The notes below the pieces were generated by a model. It was not told the DNA's origin, searched no databases, and was given only the letters and a program-made list of their open reading frames with translations. From the NCBI RefSeq assembly GCF_030068615.1, contig NZ_JASJOC010000004.1, forward strand, positions 1 to 64,000: a stretch of DNA of 64,000 nt. The letters are read 5' to 3'. This stretch comes from Halostagnicola sp. A-GB9-2. GTDB lineage: Archaea > Halobacteriota > Halobacteria > Halobacteriales > Natrialbaceae. A program made the position numbers and the translations under genes. Positions 10,746-43,453 of this stretch are shown piece by piece; position 1 is the stretch's first letter, and each line of letters begins with the position of its first letter.

Positions 10746-11609
10746 ATGGAGATCGGGGTCGTCCTCGGCGTTATCGTCATTGGGTTCGTCCACGGCGTCC
10801 TGCCAGATCACGGCTGGCCGATCGCGGCGACCTATGCGTTGAACAAACAGCGACGGCTATTTTACGGGTTCGTTGCGGCTCTCATCCTCGGCGTGGGCCA
10901 CCTCGTGAGCAGTGTCCTGTTGGTCCTCGCGTACTTCTGGTTCAGCACGTTCGCCGCCTTCGCTGAGGGACCGTGGATGCGATACGTCGCCGGGACGCTC
11001 CTGATCTTACTCGGCGTACACGAGTATCGCCACGGCGGCCACGCGATGGACGAACACGATCACGAAGGGCACGAGCATCACGACGGCGAACAAACCGACG
11101 AGCGCGGCGACGACCGCCACGATTCCGATCACACTCACGAACACGGAAACAGCGGCCACAGCCACCACACGGACGGTGGAGACGAGACGCACCACACTGG
11201 AGACCGTTCTCAGCACCACCACGATGCTCGAGACGAGGACGACTCCGAAACCAGCGTTTTCAGCCGCGTGCGACGGCACCTCCCCGGCGGTGGCGGACAC
11301 CAACACCTCGAGGAAGAACACGCACAGCGGGGGCTCTACGCGCTCGGAATGACCGCCTTGTTGCTGGGATTCGCTCACGAGGAACCGATCCAGATCCTGG
11401 CGATCTGCGTCGGGACGGAGCGCTGTCTCGAGTTGATGCTACTCTATTCGATCGCGGTAATCATCGCCATCGTCACTCCGACGCTTCTGTTGATCGCGGG
11501 CTATGAACATCATCAAAAACGGATCGAGCGGTACACGCCGTACTTGCCGACGATTACCGCAATCGTCCTCGTGGCGATGGGGATCGCGTTTATCACGGGA
11601 CTCATCTAA
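10746..11609 (+). CDS. His-rich NiCoT/RcnA-like metal transporter
   Basis: A 287-residue polytopic membrane protein. The N-terminal helix carries HGVLPDH (H16, D21, H22), like the metal-selective motif of nickel/cobalt permeases. Three helices are followed by a cytoplasmic or external loop (about 92-190) with more than 25 histidines among Asp and Glu. Three more helices follow, with LGFAHEEP (H211) as the second metal motif. The family moves Ni2+, Co2+ or related cations; RcnA-type members export them. Direction and metal are not decided by sequence. It is monocistronic; a divergent or convergent regulator was not found. Confidence 0.85.
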   Translation: MEIGVVLGVIVIGFVHGVLPDHGWPIAATYALNKQRRLFYGFVAALILGVGHLVSSVLLVLAYFWFSTFAAFAEGPWMRYVAGTLLILLGVHEYRHGGHAMDEHDHEGHEHHDGEQTDERGDDRHDSDHTHEHGNSGHSHHTDGGDETHHTGDRSQHHHDARDEDDSETSVFSRVRRHLPGGGGHQHLEEEHAQRGLYALGMTALLLGFAHEEPIQILAICVGTERCLELMLLYSIAVIIAIVTPTLLLIAGYEHHQKRIERYTPYLPTITAIVLVAMGIAFITGLI

Positions 11610-20568: not shown

Positions 20569-20580
20569 ACATATATATTT
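20569..20580 (+). promoter_or_regulatory. TATA box of the DyP/P19 cluster
   Basis: The run ACATATATATTT lies 22-33 bp before the GTG start of the DyP-like gene, which predicts a leaderless or nearly leaderless transcript. It is among the strongest TATA-like elements in the window. Confidence 0.6.
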
Positions 20581-20601: not shown

Positions 20602-21882
20602 GTGACAGTTCCAGCGCGGAACGGACTCTCTCGTCGGGACTACCTCCGAATGGCCGTCGCGGTCGGCGGAGCCAGCGCCATCAGCGCCTGCGTCGACGAG
20701 CAGGACGATATCGACGTTCCGACGGGAACCGACGACGACTCGCTTCCCGAGCGCCAACACGCCTGGGACGGGTTTCTCGAGACCGACGATGACGGCAACG
20801 TCCAGCCGCCAGAACACCACGTGCTGGTTGCACTTTCCCTCGAGGCCAAACTCGACGATGGCGACGGCGACTCGTTCGACGACGCGCGCGAAACCGTCGA
20901 GACAAGTCTCCGAACGCTCGAGCGAGCCTACGAGTGGAGCAACGACGGACTGCTGTTTACGATCGGCTACACGCCTTCGTACTTCGACCGATTCGACGGG
21001 GAGCTCCCCGAAGCCGTCGACCTACCGGAGCCGGAGCCGTTGACCGTCAGCGAGGATCCGGCGTTCGACGAGTTCGACGCGGTGATCCACCTCGCGAGCG
21101 ACCATGCCGATGTCGTGCTCCGGGCGGAAGAGGCGCTCTTTGGCGAACTCGAGGAGCTAAACGACGAACCGGTCGAGGACGATCTGACGGGCGTGTTCGA
21201 GCGACTCGACGACCACCGCCGAACCGGGTTCGTCGGCGAGGGCCTCCCGGCCGAACACACGGACGTCGGTGGCGTTCCGGACTCCGTTCCGGAGGACGCT
21301 CCGTTTTTCATGGGCTTTCGATCCGGCTTTCGGGAGAGTCAGGCGACCGAAGACCGGGTCACCATCGAAGCGGGGCCGTTCGCCGGGGGGACGACCCAGC
21401 AGCTCTCCTCGATGGGGATTCAACTCGAGGTCTGGTTCGAACAGGAAAACCACACCCAGCGCGTGATGAAGACGTTCAGCCCGGAACACGCAGAAAAGGA
21501 TCTGGTGGGCGAGGTCGGCGAAGCGTTGGGAGCCTCGAGCGGACTCACCGACGAGCGGATCGAGGCGACCGAAGCAGACGCGACGAACCCCGGCGTCGTG
21601 GGACACGCCCAGAAGGCCGCGCGGGCTCGAGAAAACGGCAATCCGCTTCTCTTGCGGCGGGACTTCAACACGGTCGACGGCGATAGTCCGGGCTTGCACT
21701 TCCTCTCGCTCCAGCGCGAACTCACGGAGTTCCGGGCTGTTCGAGACGCGATGACGGGTGCAGATCTCGACGTGCAGACCCTCAACAACGGGATCATGGG
21801 CTACATCTTCGTCGACCGACGAGGGAACTACCTCGTCCCGCCTCGATCCCATCGCTCGTTGCCACCGGCGTCGCCCGAATAG
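20602..21882 (+). CDS. Tat-exported DyP-like peroxidase lipoprotein (DUF7405-like)
   Basis: A 426-residue protein with a Tat motif (SRRDYLRM) and a lipobox ISAC at Cys30, so it is anchored outside the cell. The middle and C-terminus resemble dye-decolourising peroxidases: a GF-containing block GFRSGFRESQ (238-247), a candidate proximal heme histidine H335 in VVGHAQKAARARENG, and the RRDFNTVDG...GLHFLSLQRE block typical of the C-terminal domain. The usual catalytic GxxDG is GFRSG here, so the distal Asp is missing, which questions peroxidase chemistry. It starts with GTG 31 bp... upstream of nothing else; the P19-like gene follows after 31 bp. The analogy is EfeB in iron uptake, inferred only. 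Confidence 0.8.
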   Translation: MTVPARNGLSRRDYLRMAVAVGGASAISACVDEQDDIDVPTGTDDDSLPERQHAWDGFLETDDDGNVQPPEHHVLVALSLEAKLDDGDGDSFDDARETVETSLRTLERAYEWSNDGLLFTIGYTPSYFDRFDGELPEAVDLPEPEPLTVSEDPAFDEFDAVIHLASDHADVVLRAEEALFGELEELNDEPVEDDLTGVFERLDDHRRTGFVGEGLPAEHTDVGGVPDSVPEDAPFFMGFRSGFRESQATEDRVTIEAGPFAGGTTQQLSSMGIQLEVWFEQENHTQRVMKTFSPEHAEKDLVGEVGEALGASSGLTDERIEATEADATNPGVVGHAQKAARARENGNPLLLRRDFNTVDGDSPGLHFLSLQRELTEFRAVRDAMTGADLDVQTLNNGIMGYIFVDRRGNYLVPPRSHRSLPPASPE

Positions 21883-21913
21883 TCGACCCCAAAGCGAACG
21901 ATTACACCAACCA

Positions 21914-23233
21914 ATGTCAGACACAGACAACACGAAGCGGCGAATCGATCGACGACGATTTCTCGTACACGCAGGCGCAGCTGCAGGGATTGCGGGCCTT
22001 GCAGGCTGTACGCTCGAGCTCGACGACGAATCGGCGGATCCGGATCCGAGCGACGACCCCGCGATGCCCCAATTTTACGAAATCGAGGACAAACCGGACG
22101 CGGTCTATCTGCCGACTCACCGCGAGGCGATGCGGATGCTCGAGCCGGTCGAAGCGGGCGAGTACACGCTCGCACCGATGCTCTCGTACCCGCATCCCTT
22201 CTGGATCATCAGCGGGAACGAAATCCAAGAAGAAGTGCCCGAGGACGGCAACGGCGTCCACCTCATGATGACCGTCTGGGACACCGACACCGGCATCGTC
22301 CTCCCCGTCGACAGCGGCGCACAGCTTCGAGTCGAGAAAAACGGCGAACAGGTCGGCTCGCCGCGGACTCCCTGGCCGATGATCTCCCAGCAGATGGGCT
22401 TTCACTTCGGCGACAACGTCACTCTCGAGGAGGACGGAACCCACACGGCCGAGGTGACACTTCCTCCGCTCGACGTTCGAACGACGGGCGAACTCGAGGG
22501 CAAGTACGAGGAAACCCAGACGCTTTCGTTCGAGTTCGAGTACGACCAGGAGTTCCGCGAGGAGGTCGTCGCCGGCGTCGAGTACTTCGATGAAGACGAG
22601 TGGGGCGAACTCGGCGCGCTCGAGCCGATGGACCACGGAGAACACGACCACAGGGACAAGGAAGATCACCACCACGAAGACGACGATCACGAACACGGCG
22701 ACGACGGTCACCATCACGACGAGGAAGACCACGAACACGGCGACGATGACGATCATCACGACCACGAACACGATGCTGACGGCGAGCACGATGATCACGC
22801 ACACGTTCCCTACTCCGAGTTGCCGCCCGCCGAGGAGTATCCGGGCACCCACCTCAAGCCGGCCGACGGCGACGAGGAGGCCACGAGCGGCGACGCCGTT
22901 TTCGTGACGACACTGTTCGAGCCCGGTTCACGGCTCGTCGACGGCGACGAGCAGTATCTTCTCGTCTCTCCGCGGACGCCGTACAACCGCGTTCCGCTGG
23001 CGGACATGTCGCTGTCGGCGTCCGTCGACGACGGCGAATCGGTCTCGCTCGAGCAGACGATCGACGACGAGTTCGACCTCCACTACGGCGGGCCCCTCGA
23101 GGACGTTGAATCGGGCGACGACGTGACCGTCGAGATCGACTCGTTCCCGCAGGTCGCGCGCCACCAGGGGTACGACACGGCGTTTCTGGACATGCCGCCG
23201 GTCGAACTGACGGTTCCGGAGGTCGACGAATGA
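21914..23233 (+). CDS. P19/Tp34-like iron-binding lipoprotein with His-rich linker (DUF7350-like)
   Basis: A 439-residue exported lipoprotein: Tat motif DRRRFLVHA, lipobox LAGC at Cys32. Residues about 60-190 match the P19 type of periplasmic metal-binding fold, with GVHLMMTVWDTDTG, PMISQQMGFHFGDNVTLEEDG and a closing beta strand. Residues 241-297 form a loop of about 25 histidines set among Asp and Glu. The C-terminal part (300-439) is a second beta-rich domain with similar strand order. P19 proteins feed Fe2+ or Cu to uptake systems. The ATG 21914 is chosen because it precedes the signal. The gene lies 31 bp after the DyP-like gene and overlaps the next one, so the three form an operon. Confidence 0.85.
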   Translation: MSDTDNTKRRIDRRRFLVHAGAAAGIAGLAGCTLELDDESADPDPSDDPAMPQFYEIEDKPDAVYLPTHREAMRMLEPVEAGEYTLAPMLSYPHPFWIISGNEIQEEVPEDGNGVHLMMTVWDTDTGIVLPVDSGAQLRVEKNGEQVGSPRTPWPMISQQMGFHFGDNVTLEEDGTHTAEVTLPPLDVRTTGELEGKYEETQTLSFEFEYDQEFREEVVAGVEYFDEDEWGELGALEPMDHGEHDHRDKEDHHHEDDDHEHGDDGHHHDEEDHEHGDDDDHHDHEHDADGEHDDHAHVPYSELPPAEEYPGTHLKPADGDEEATSGDAVFVTTLFEPGSRLVDGDEQYLLVSPRTPYNRVPLADMSLSASVDDGESVSLEQTIDDEFDLHYGGPLEDVESGDDVTVEIDSFPQVARHQGYDTAFLDMPPVELTVPEVDE

Positions 23234-23871
23234 CGACGGGACGGCTCGCTCGAGGCGCGGTCGTGGTCGCGGTCTGTCTGGTCGCGAGCGCGCTCTTGGT
23301 CGCGCCGGTCGGTGCCGGGGACGGCTCCGCGGTCATGTCGTTCGACGACGAGGACGTGACGGCCGCCCCAGGTGAAACCGTCGAGGTCGACGTGCTCTTC
23401 TCGAGTCACGGCGACGGCTCAGGAAACGGCGTGACCGATATCGATGTGACCGTTGGCCACGACACCGACAACCTCTCGGTTGCGAACGTCGAGTACGGTA
23501 CCTGGTTCGAGGAGGAGATAGACGGCGACGAGGTCGAGATCCACCGGACGAACGAGGTAGACGAGGAGACCGGCAACGTCACGATCCAGAAAGAGCGCGA
23601 TCCACCCGGTGACGGCACGACGAACTACGCCCCGGTCGCGACGATCACGTTCGAGGTCGACGAAGACGCCGAGCTGGGTCCGACCGAACTCGAGTTCACG
23701 GACAGTTCGGCGGGCACATCTGGAGACTACCGACAGAACGCGATCGAGCGGACCGGAACGATCGAGATCGAGGAAGCGACGGGTGACGAGCCGATGCACG
23801 GCTTCGGTGCGGCCGTTGCACTCGGATCGCTACTGCTTGCGGTGCTCGTGGGCCTCCGGCGACGGCGGTAA
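23230..23871 (+). CDS. cohesin-like surface protein with C-terminal membrane anchor
   Basis: A 213-residue protein whose ATG overlaps the preceding stop (ATGA). It has a Sec-type signal (1-32, VAVCLVASALLVAPVGA), a beta-rich domain (35-175) with the cohesin-like pattern VTAAPGETVEVDVLFSS, DIDVTVGHDTDNLSV, and PVATITFEVDEDAELGPTELEF, and a C-terminal tail GFGAAVALGSLLLAVLVGLRRRR. The tail looks like a PGF-CTERM sorting signal with His in place of the Pro, so processing by an archaeosortase is possible but unproven. Position in the operon suggests it scaffolds or presents the two lipoproteins. Confidence 0.78.
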   Translation: MTTGRLARGAVVVAVCLVASALLVAPVGAGDGSAVMSFDDEDVTAAPGETVEVDVLFSSHGDGSGNGVTDIDVTVGHDTDNLSVANVEYGTWFEEEIDGDEVEIHRTNEVDEETGNVTIQKERDPPGDGTTNYAPVATITFEVDEDAELGPTELEFTDSSAGTSGDYRQNAIERTGTIEIEEATGDEPMHGFGAAVALGSLLLAVLVGLRRRR

Positions 23872-24015: not shown

Positions 24016-24453
24016 TCAGCACGTTAATTCTTCGTATCCCTTGTCACCGGTGACTTCCACGTTGAATTCTCGTGGCCCACCAAATGTTACCCAGATATGG
24101 TTGCAATCATCCGCAGTAACCGTTTTCTCAACGTCCTCTGGAATAGAAATCCGCTCTAATTCTTCTGCAGTAGCATAGAGAAGCGAGTACTCTGCCGGTT
24201 CTGTTGACCACGATGAGTCAACGATCTCATACGTATTCGCATCAACTTCGACGGTGTTATCATAGACTTGTTCGCCGTCACGCGATAGCTGAAGCTGTAT
24301 AGATTGCGAATCTTCAGTTAAATTATCGACGAGCATATTCCCCATTCGAATACCGCTATCAGAACTGAACGGTAGTGAATCTGAACAACCAGAGAGCGTC
24401 GAAATACCGATTGTAGCAAGTACACATCGACGAGACAGTATAGATTCGTTCAT
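24016..24453 (-). CDS. exported lipoprotein of unknown function, AT-rich
   Basis: A 145-residue protein with a Tat-like SRRCVLATIG and lipobox LSGC. The mature part is beta-rich and contains several short strands (IQLQLSRDGEQVYDNTVEVDA, HIWVTFGGPREFNVEV), like an immunoglobulin-type domain. ATG 24453 is preferred to the upstream TTG at 24465. Codon use is clearly more AT-rich than in neighbouring genes, and the surrounding 480 bp share this, which suggests recent arrival by transfer. Single gene. Confidence 0.8.
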   Translation of the reverse strand: MNESILSRRCVLATIGISTLSGCSDSLPFSSDSGIRMGNMLVDNLTEDSQSIQLQLSRDGEQVYDNTVEVDANTYEIVDSSWSTEPAEYSLLYATAEELERISIPEDVEKTVTADDCNHIWVTFGGPREFNVEVTGDKGYEELTC

Positions 24454-24472
24454 AGTGTCAATCAATACCGAT

Positions 24473-41442: not shown

Positions 41443-41605
41443 GTTTTGCATGCATACTTCCCCACGGACTTATGCGTCTCAGTAACGGCAAAAACCGCAG
41501 ACCTTGAGAGATGATATCTCGCACATGAGGCCATACTAGTGAGTGCGAACGACACGCAGTACCGAGACGGACGATTTCTTAGGGGAGTAGTTGCTACGCT
41601 CGAGT

Positions 41606-42835
41606 GTGTCCTCGAGTCGTCGCGATCGGATCGTCCTCGCAACCGTCGTGTTCGCGGTGTTGTTCTCGCAGCTCCTGCTCTATCCGGGGGTCGCGACCCT
41701 CGTCGAAGCCCTCGGTGCCGACCCAGGTAGCGAGTCCTCACCGTTCGCAACGACGGCGCTCGACGCGAGCATGTGGTTCCTCGTCGCGGAGTTCGCGGCG
41801 TACGTCGCCTTCGTCGGCGTCTGGGGAGCCGCAAGCGACATGACAGGCCGACGAACGCCCTTCATCGTCATCGGCGCACTCGCCGGTGCCGTCGGCTATC
41901 TCGCGCTCGCGGTAGCGCCCCTGCTCGGCTCCGTTCCCTTCGAAGGCGTACTCCTCCTGCGGGTGCTTCAAGGCGCGATGACCATCGGCGCGTTCTCGCT
42001 GACGATGACGATGCTGATGGATCTCGAGGGGGGCCACGGCAGGAATATGGGTGCCGCGGGGATCGCGATCGGACTCGGCGCGGCCCTCGGCGCTCCGATG
42101 GGGGGCCAACTCACGACGGTTCACCCGCTCGCCCCGCTGGTCGCCGCCGGGGTCTTGCTCGTCTGTGTCGGCGGGCTCGTCACTGTCGTATCCGATAGAG
42201 CACCGAGCGGTAAACGGACGGCTCGAGACCTTCTCGAGGGCGTTCGCCGGCGACCGACGCTCTCGATTCCCTACGCGTTCGGGTTTATCGATCGACTCAC
42301 GGCCGGGTTTTTCGCCCTCGTCGGGACGCTTTACTTTCAGGACACGTTCGGACTGGATCCCGCACAGACTGGGCTCTTGCTGGCGTGCTTTTTCGCTCCC
42401 TTCGCGCTCTTGCAGTACCCGATGGGAGCCCTCTCGGATCGAATCGGCCGAACGGTTCCGATCGTCGTCGGCTCGCTCTGTTATGGCGTCGGGATTCTGG
42501 GCGTTAACGTCGCACCGACGGTGACACTCGCAGCGCTTGCGATGGTTACGGTCGGTATTCTCGGCGCGCTCGTCTCTCCGGCGACGATGGCGCTCGTAAC
42601 CGACATCGCCGCCGACGACGAACGCGGCGTCGCGATGAGCGGATTCAACCTCGCAGGGAGCCTCGGCTTTCTGGGCGGGTTCCTCATCGGCGGCACCGTC
42701 GCCGACACGTACGGCTACGATCTGGCATTTCTCGTCGTCGGCGGCCTCGAAATCGCCATCGCGCTCGTCGCCGTTCCGATCTTCCTTAGACTATCATTAT
42801 CCGGACACAAACATGTTCGTGAGGGCGAGGCATAA
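41606..42835 (+). CDS. MFS transporter
   Basis: A 409-residue permease with 12 predicted helices. GTG 41606 puts SSSRRDRIVLATVVFAVLF directly before helix 1; a TTG at 41591 would add five residues. The motif after helix 2 is WGAASDMTGRRTPFIV, and the second half has ALSDRIGRTVPIVVG, both standard MFS A-motifs. The cargo is unknown. It is divergent from metY with 163 bp between starts. Confidence 0.9.
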   Translation: MSSSRRDRIVLATVVFAVLFSQLLLYPGVATLVEALGADPGSESSPFATTALDASMWFLVAEFAAYVAFVGVWGAASDMTGRRTPFIVIGALAGAVGYLALAVAPLLGSVPFEGVLLLRVLQGAMTIGAFSLTMTMLMDLEGGHGRNMGAAGIAIGLGAALGAPMGGQLTTVHPLAPLVAAGVLLVCVGGLVTVVSDRAPSGKRTARDLLEGVRRRPTLSIPYAFGFIDRLTAGFFALVGTLYFQDTFGLDPAQTGLLLACFFAPFALLQYPMGALSDRIGRTVPIVVGSLCYGVGILGVNVAPTVTLAALAMVTVGILGALVSPATMALVTDIAADDERGVAMSGFNLAGSLGFLGGFLIGGTVADTYGYDLAFLVVGGLEIAIALVAVPIFLRLSLSGHKHVREGEA

Positions 42836-42970: not shown

Positions 42971-43453
42971 ATGGCACGAAAGCGAACGGTCTCACGGCGA
43001 ACCGCACTGAAGGTCACAGGCGCTGCTGCGGCAACCGCGCTGGTCGCAGGATGCAGTGACGATGACGACGGGAACGGTGGCGACGATGACGATGACGGTG
43101 GCGACGACGGTGGAGAGACCATCGAACCCGGAACGGAAATCGAACTCCTCGGTTATACTGGCGGTTGGGAAGGCGTCGCACCCGAAGAAATCGAGGGCGA
43201 AGATAACCCGACACTCAACCTCGAAGAGGGCGAAGAGTACGACTTTACGTGGGAGAACGCAGACGGCGACGAGCACAACCTCGAAATCTGGGACGACGAC
43301 GGGGAGCTTGTAGACGACGAGTACCAGACTGACTTCAGCTCGAGCGAGGGAGAGACCGAGACGCTCGAGGGTGTCGAAGCAAGCGACGACATGGCAGAGT
43401 ACGTCTGCGAACCACACTCGAGTACGATGAACGGCGAAATCAACGTCGAATAA
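42971..43453 (+). CDS. halocyanin-like blue copper lipoprotein
   Basis: A 160-residue protein: Tat motif SRRTALKVTG, lipobox VAGC at about Cys28, an Asp/Gly linker (29-48), then a cupredoxin domain. Copper ligands are seen as His in DEHNLEIWDDD and Cys-x2-His-x3-Met in YVCEPHSSTMNG. The fold shuttles electrons on the outer face of the membrane in haloarchaea. It is monocistronic; the IS insertion lies 72 bp after its stop. The ATG 42971 matches the signal; the upstream GTG/ATG codons do not. Confidence 0.9.
   Translation: MARKRTVSRRTALKVTGAAAATALVAGCSDDDDGNGGDDDDDGGDDGGETIEPGTEIELLGYTGGWEGVAPEEIEGEDNPTLNLEEGEEYDFTWENADGDEHNLEIWDDDGELVDDEYQTDFSSSEGETETLEGVEASDDMAEYVCEPHSSTMNGEINVE

Follow-up and report, generated by a model that had tools for sequence, protein, structure and literature searches.

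Known relatives of two protein folds, that of the DyP peroxidases and that of P19, serve iron uptake in the EfeUOB and FetMP/P19-cFtr1 systems (PMC9174327, PMC6083913). In the DyPs an Asp and an Arg of the active site are near-universal (PMC6153280, PMC7611857, PMC8197335); enzymes of the A and C/D classes cannot form Compound I without the distal Asp (PMC6153280; PMC8197335), and in the B-class DyP of R. jostii the Arg outweighs the Asp in importance (PMC6153280, PMC7611857, PMC8197335). In P19 of C. jejuni, an acidic iron-type patch is made up of Glu3, Glu44, Asp46 and Asp92 (PMC9174327). A DyP for which no uptake is required is DtpA of Streptomyces, a Tat-exported protein whose operon also contains sco, ecuc and a copper transport gene and which acts in extracytoplasmic copper trafficking (PMC4736821), where it is needed for the maturation of an exported cuproenzyme (PMC4736821; PMC8197335); in S. 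lividans this class A enzyme is possibly membrane-held and is accompanied by extracytoplasmic metal-binding proteins (PMC4736821).

Here we describe a haloarchaeal locus in which a DyP-fold protein and a P19-like protein are encoded side by side. The window, that is, the whole stretch of DNA analysed, comprises 64,000 nt of Halostagnicola sp. A-GB9-2 (GTDB lineage Archaea; Halobacteriota; Halobacteria; Halobacteriales; Natrialbaceae), namely positions 1 to 64,000 of the forward strand of NZ_JASJOC010000004.1 (GCF_030068615.1). An earlier note on this DNA had proposed a metal-capture system of three exported proteins. In the literature searched, neither DUF7405 nor DUF7350, the families of the two central proteins, was found by name, and the pair has not been studied under these designations.

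Results

Layout of the locus

The following features, all on the plus strand, were assigned in the window.

20572..20579, +, TATA-like box tatatatt, read from the sequence, about 25 bp 5' of the start of gene A
20602..21882, +, gene A (426 aa), DUF7405, Tat lipoprotein with predicted DyP fold; Pfam PF24152, E=1.5e-153
21313..21327, +, GFRSG, residues 238-242 of A, opposite GFKDG in the EfeB alignment; Ser in place of the Asp of DyP GxxDG
21604..21606, +, His335 of A, predicted proximal heme ligand, invariant in 48/48 homologs; aligned with the DSHIR region of EfeB
21655..21660, +, Arg352-Arg353 of A, candidate distal arginine, invariant in 48/48 homologs; aligned with LRRGYS of EfeB
21914..23233, +, gene B (439 aa), tandem P19-like Tat lipoprotein; Pfam, profile and fold matches
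22094..22582, +, N-terminal P19-like domain of B; FtrA/P19 profile, E=9.4e-6; FetP alignment, E=3e-6; invariant H116, M118, M156, M161 and H164
22619..22804, +, His/Asp/Glu-rich linker of B; 62 aa, 20 His, 30 acidic residues
22835..23212, +, C-terminal domain of B, DUF7350, second P19-like domain; PF24041, E=2.6e-47; invariant H417
23230..23871, +, gene C (213 aa), cohesin-domain protein with Sec-type signal; PF00963, E=6.8e-7

Genes A, B and C lie on one strand in the order A-B-C. Of the genes described earlier as overlapping or closely spaced, only B and C overlap, by 4 bp; A and B are separated by a gap of 31 bp. Gene A begins with GTG, and the TATA-like box before it may act as its promoter, at a distance that would suit a leaderless transcript. 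The signal motifs read previously are present, namely the Tat motif RRDYLRM and lipobox ISAC in A, and RRRFL and LAGC in B. A chance assignment of the three genes is excluded by their Pfam E values (1.5e-153 for A, 2.6e-47 for the C-terminal domain of B and 6.8e-7 for C) together with class-wide conservation.

Gene A

The AlphaFold model of A, built from 48 homologs (pLDDT 90.6, pTM 0.91), matched DyP peroxidases in all of the top 50 entries of a fold search of the PDB (E 2e-16 to 5e-14), with TM-scores of about 0.6-0.7 on the target. Sequence comparisons point the same way, though weakly: chains of DyP and deferrochelatase proteins appeared near E=0.1, the pairwise alignment with E. coli EfeB was nearly full-length at E=0.013, and eight DUF7405 loci of other genomes scored above the cut-off of Dyp_perox_C, though not A of the window, which also stayed far from the EfeB model TIGR01412 of NCBIfam (11.6 bits against a cut-off of 428). 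The resemblance to a DyP that had been noticed earlier is thus borne out, as is the replacement of GxxDG by GFRSG: the position of the distal Asp is occupied by Ser in 37, Ala in 10 and Gly in 1 of the 48 homologs, and by Asp in none. His335, around which a check of the heme pocket had been proposed, falls at the DSHIR region of EfeB in the alignment.

Protein A therefore has the two ferredoxin-like domains of the DyP fold, the proximal His and the distal Arg, but lacks the distal Asp; since one defining active-site feature is missing, the name peroxidase is not warranted without an assay, and we regard A as a predicted DyP-fold protein with a candidate heme site. It shares Tat export as well as the fold, the His and the Arg with the class A DyP EfeB (YcdB) of EfeUOB, but differs in being a lipoprotein and in having no EfeU/FTR1 partner. 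The role of the distal Asp could be tested on a natural DyP family that lacks it. Among 197 sampled genomes of the phylum, matches to A were confined to haloarchaea, and a match in Micavibrio was rejected as a chance match in an unrelated frame.

Gene B

The 25 best PDB fold matches of the B model (pLDDT 87.2) were FetP, FtrA/P19, Tp34 and HftA, and the B profile matched the solved P19 protein FtrA. The Pfam family Iron_transport (PF10634) was above its cut-off in 89 of 146 haloarchaeal genomes, mostly at B-type genes, and gave no match at E<1 for B of the window. The term P19-like, borne out by the fold and profile matches, was well chosen. Comparison of the two halves of B by hhalign showed them to be homologous (probability 97, E=1.5e-10), so that the protein is a covalent tandem, unlike P19, FetP, FtrA and Tp34, from which it further differs in being a lipoprotein, in having Met at the positions of FetP E46 and D94, and in the missing FTR1. 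Shared with these proteins are the fold, the motif PM...GxHYGxN and the His and Met ligand positions.

In profile alignments of about 20% identity, H116, M118, M156, M161 and H164 of B are aligned with FetP H44, E46, M90, D94 and H97, and H417 of the second domain stands opposite FetP H127 in a weak alignment (E=0.005); all six residues are invariant in 47 proteins. Bacterial P19 proteins form crystals with metal bound at sites to which these six FetP residues belong, and the residue letters agree with the FetP gene at one of our loci (L211). The His and Met positions of the P19 copper site (FetP H44, M90, H97 and H127) are thus matched in B, weakly so for H127. The acidic second site is not kept: the positions of Glu44 and Asp92 of C. 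jejuni P19, the two of its four acidic residues that can be placed in the alignment, are Met118 and Met161 in 47/47 proteins.

The linker between the domains is the histidine loop of the earlier note; the count of about 25 histidines given there is to be corrected to 20 in the 62 residues, with 29 in the whole protein. It is restricted to some lineages and missing from most homologs outside the Natrialbaceae. A short P19-like gene in another genome (L207, G053:C1:2734377-2734670, in a 194-aa frame) gave the best haloarchaeal Iron_transport match (E=3.6e-11).

Gene C

Protein C comprises a cohesin domain (residues 42-177) and a PGF-CTERM-like tail (residues 186-213), features shared with cohesin/PGF-CTERM substrates of archaeosortase. 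The previous reading of a cohesin-like protein with a sorting-type tail is confirmed for the cohesin domain; the tail is degenerate, scoring 20.1 bits against the 24.5-bit cut-off of TIGR04126 because HGF replaces the PGF that is present in most homologs. C adjoins A-B in 15 of the 52 genera, without exception in the order A-B-C, and is an accessory of the pair in some lineages. Its suggested role as an anchor is doubtful, as A and B each have a lipobox of their own and C is absent from most loci. In one genome an archaeosortase A gene (TIGR04125, 344 bits; L071, 12251-13195) lies directly 3' of A-B.

Distribution and neighbours of A and B

Of the 146 haloarchaeal genomes, 129 encode DUF7405 and 125 encode DUF7350; both were found in 125, A only in 4, B only in 0 and neither in 17 (Fisher 9e-19, a value inflated by shared ancestry, with the genomes that have neither spanning several genera and families). 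B lies within 3 kb of A at 89 of 120 loci and in 41 of 52 genera, fractions that are approximate since the A loci were chosen for spread and include paralogs. Among the 89 loci, B is downstream of A in 64, upstream in 11 and on the opposite strand in 14; the persistence of the pair in these different arrangements speaks for a common function. The two genes are co-inherited. Of the three genes whose co-conservation was in question, A and B are strongly co-conserved and C is an accessory, and with the DyP and P19 folds found and the A-B pair conserved, the grounds on which the earlier proposal was to be abandoned did not arise.

No FTR1 permease (PF03239) was detected in any of the 146 haloarchaeal genomes, the four control genomes being positive, so that these genomes lack the FTR1-family permease of EfeUOB and FetMP; the previous observation of no visible permease beside the genes was right, and more widely than stated. 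In one family, an MFS permease gene lies 3' of B in about five genera; it was rejected as a dedicated partner, being present in 138 of the 146 genomes, including 14 of the 17 that lack A and B, and no permease co-inherited with A-B was found.

Two kinds of gene were enriched near A/B relative to more distant genes, namely a regulator of the HVO_0163 type, in 8 genera (p=1e-5), and a thioredoxin similar to DsbA, in 6 genera (p=0.004); these p-values treat related loci as independent. SCO1 and TlpA were each found nearby in two genera, COX15 and a blue copper protein in one each, and a DsbD-type membrane protein and a ZIP transporter in one or two each; linkage to SCO1/COX was seen and was not significant (SCO1 p=0.15). 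In five genera a Tat lipoprotein of about 640 aa is encoded 47-85 bp upstream of A paralogs (L083 3906-5831, L080, L086, L088 and L195); its identification as a copper amine oxidase, in parallel with GlxA, was rejected, as Pfam and NCBIfam gave no match and the PDB none that was convincing.

Discussion

The results described above give folds and a testable role to two domains of unknown function, DUF7405 and DUF7350, of nearly 90% of the haloarchaeal genomes sampled. A-B probably acts on copper (or iron) outside the cell. Between the possible roles, we favour an extracytoplasmic copper-handling redox module over iron uptake, and tentatively, at somewhat less than an even chance, regard A-B as a class-wide haloarchaeal metal module at the outer face of the membrane, acting most likely on copper and not in uptake. 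The copper reading is based on the Met and His ligands of B, on the lack of both the acidic site and a permease, and on the precedent of DtpA; the DsbA-like thioredoxin, SCO1, TlpA, COX15 and the blue copper protein among the neighbours of A/B count in its favour. Extracytoplasmic delivery can do without a permease, and this would account for our finding none that travels with A-B.

In the predicted mechanism, B would hold Cu(I) at one composite site formed by H116, M118, M156, M161 and H164 together with H417 of the second domain. A would bind heme and then either alter the redox state of the metal or dispose of peroxide, and B may hand the metal to exported proteins, for example, cuproenzymes or respiratory components. 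In those lineages that have them, the His linker may buffer metal and C may be an accessory surface protein. A narrower version, possible but on the unlikely side, is that DUF7405-DUF7350 constitutes an extracytoplasmic Cu(I) relay of haloarchaea, in which a pseudo-dimeric P19 has had its iron site turned into a Met/His copper site and the DyP-fold hemoprotein, having given up its catalytic Asp, serves as a redox partner or as a chaperone of heme rather than as a typical peroxidase.

The closest published analogue is DtpA with Sco and ECuC, a Tat-exported class A DyP combined with copper chaperones and without uptake. The comparison is one of analogy and not a claim of membership: DtpA is a GxxDG-type DyP and not an orthologue of A, and its partners are Sco/ECuC and not P19, SCO1 being near A/B in two genera only. 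Several points weigh against copper. Neighbours such as SCO1, COX15 and cuproenzymes are few and not significantly enriched (SCO1 p=0.15), and the apparent change of E46 and D94 to Met is read from profile alignments at about 20% identity. To our knowledge, the P19 proteins examined to date serve iron uptake, and FetP, despite binding copper in crystals, is not known to deliver copper.

The main rival is iron uptake through a permease, in which the EfeB-like A and the P19-like B would capture iron, oxidise it or remove it from heme, and hand it to a non-FTR1 permease encoded elsewhere. Iron uptake is the function that known relatives of both folds serve, and at one A locus (L110) a ZIP transporter gene lies 86 bp downstream; we nevertheless consider it unlikely, given the lack of FTR1 in all genomes sampled, the Met residues at the acidic iron-site positions of P19 and the occurrence of the MFS gene that follows B in genomes without A and B. 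For Haloferax volcanii, a species that carries both families, the main text of an iron-starvation proteome paper, searched by name and not by locus tag, contains no P19, peroxidase or DUF7 entry. The earlier idea of metal capture, taken as uptake, is unsupported: neither FTR1 nor a co-inherited permease was found, and the acidic iron site of P19 is not kept in B. That an EfeB-like and a P19-like protein co-occur throughout the lineage without an FTR1 permease implies that the usual iron-uptake reading of both folds does not transfer.

Defence of the envelope against oxidants, with the heme protein A removing them at the surface and B supplying or buffering metal for A, would accord with the DyP fold, the invariant proximal His and Arg and the thioredoxin-like neighbours. 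It is quite improbable in our judgement, as the Asp on which Compound I depends in DyPs of classes A and C/D (PMC6153280, PMC8197335) is missing in 48/48 homologs and plain removal of peroxide needs no near-obligate metal-binding partner. In many Natrialbaceae (L033-L054, L084, L085 and others), though not in this genome, the A-B(-C) cassette is located between menB and menA, and this placement raises the further idea of a role for A, B and C in the quinone pathway or in respiration. menB is near in 9 and menA in 8 of the genera sampled; the arrangement is largely limited to Natrialbaceae, the copy in the window and those of most other families being placed elsewhere, and no enzymatic connection is visible, so that we give this idea very little credence.

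Some other genes of the window may be recorded here. The orthologue of the MFS gene is located at 41591-42832 (+), just 5' of a gene for a Tat-exported blue copper protein at 42971-43450 (+; Copper-bind, E=1.6e-6). A membrane protein with an HGVLPDH motif, encoded at 10746-11609 (+), weakly resembles nickel/cobalt efflux transporters (PRK10019, E=1.8e-6, far under the cut-off), and a small lipoprotein-like gene with no Pfam match lies 3' of C on the opposite strand, at 24016-24465 (-).
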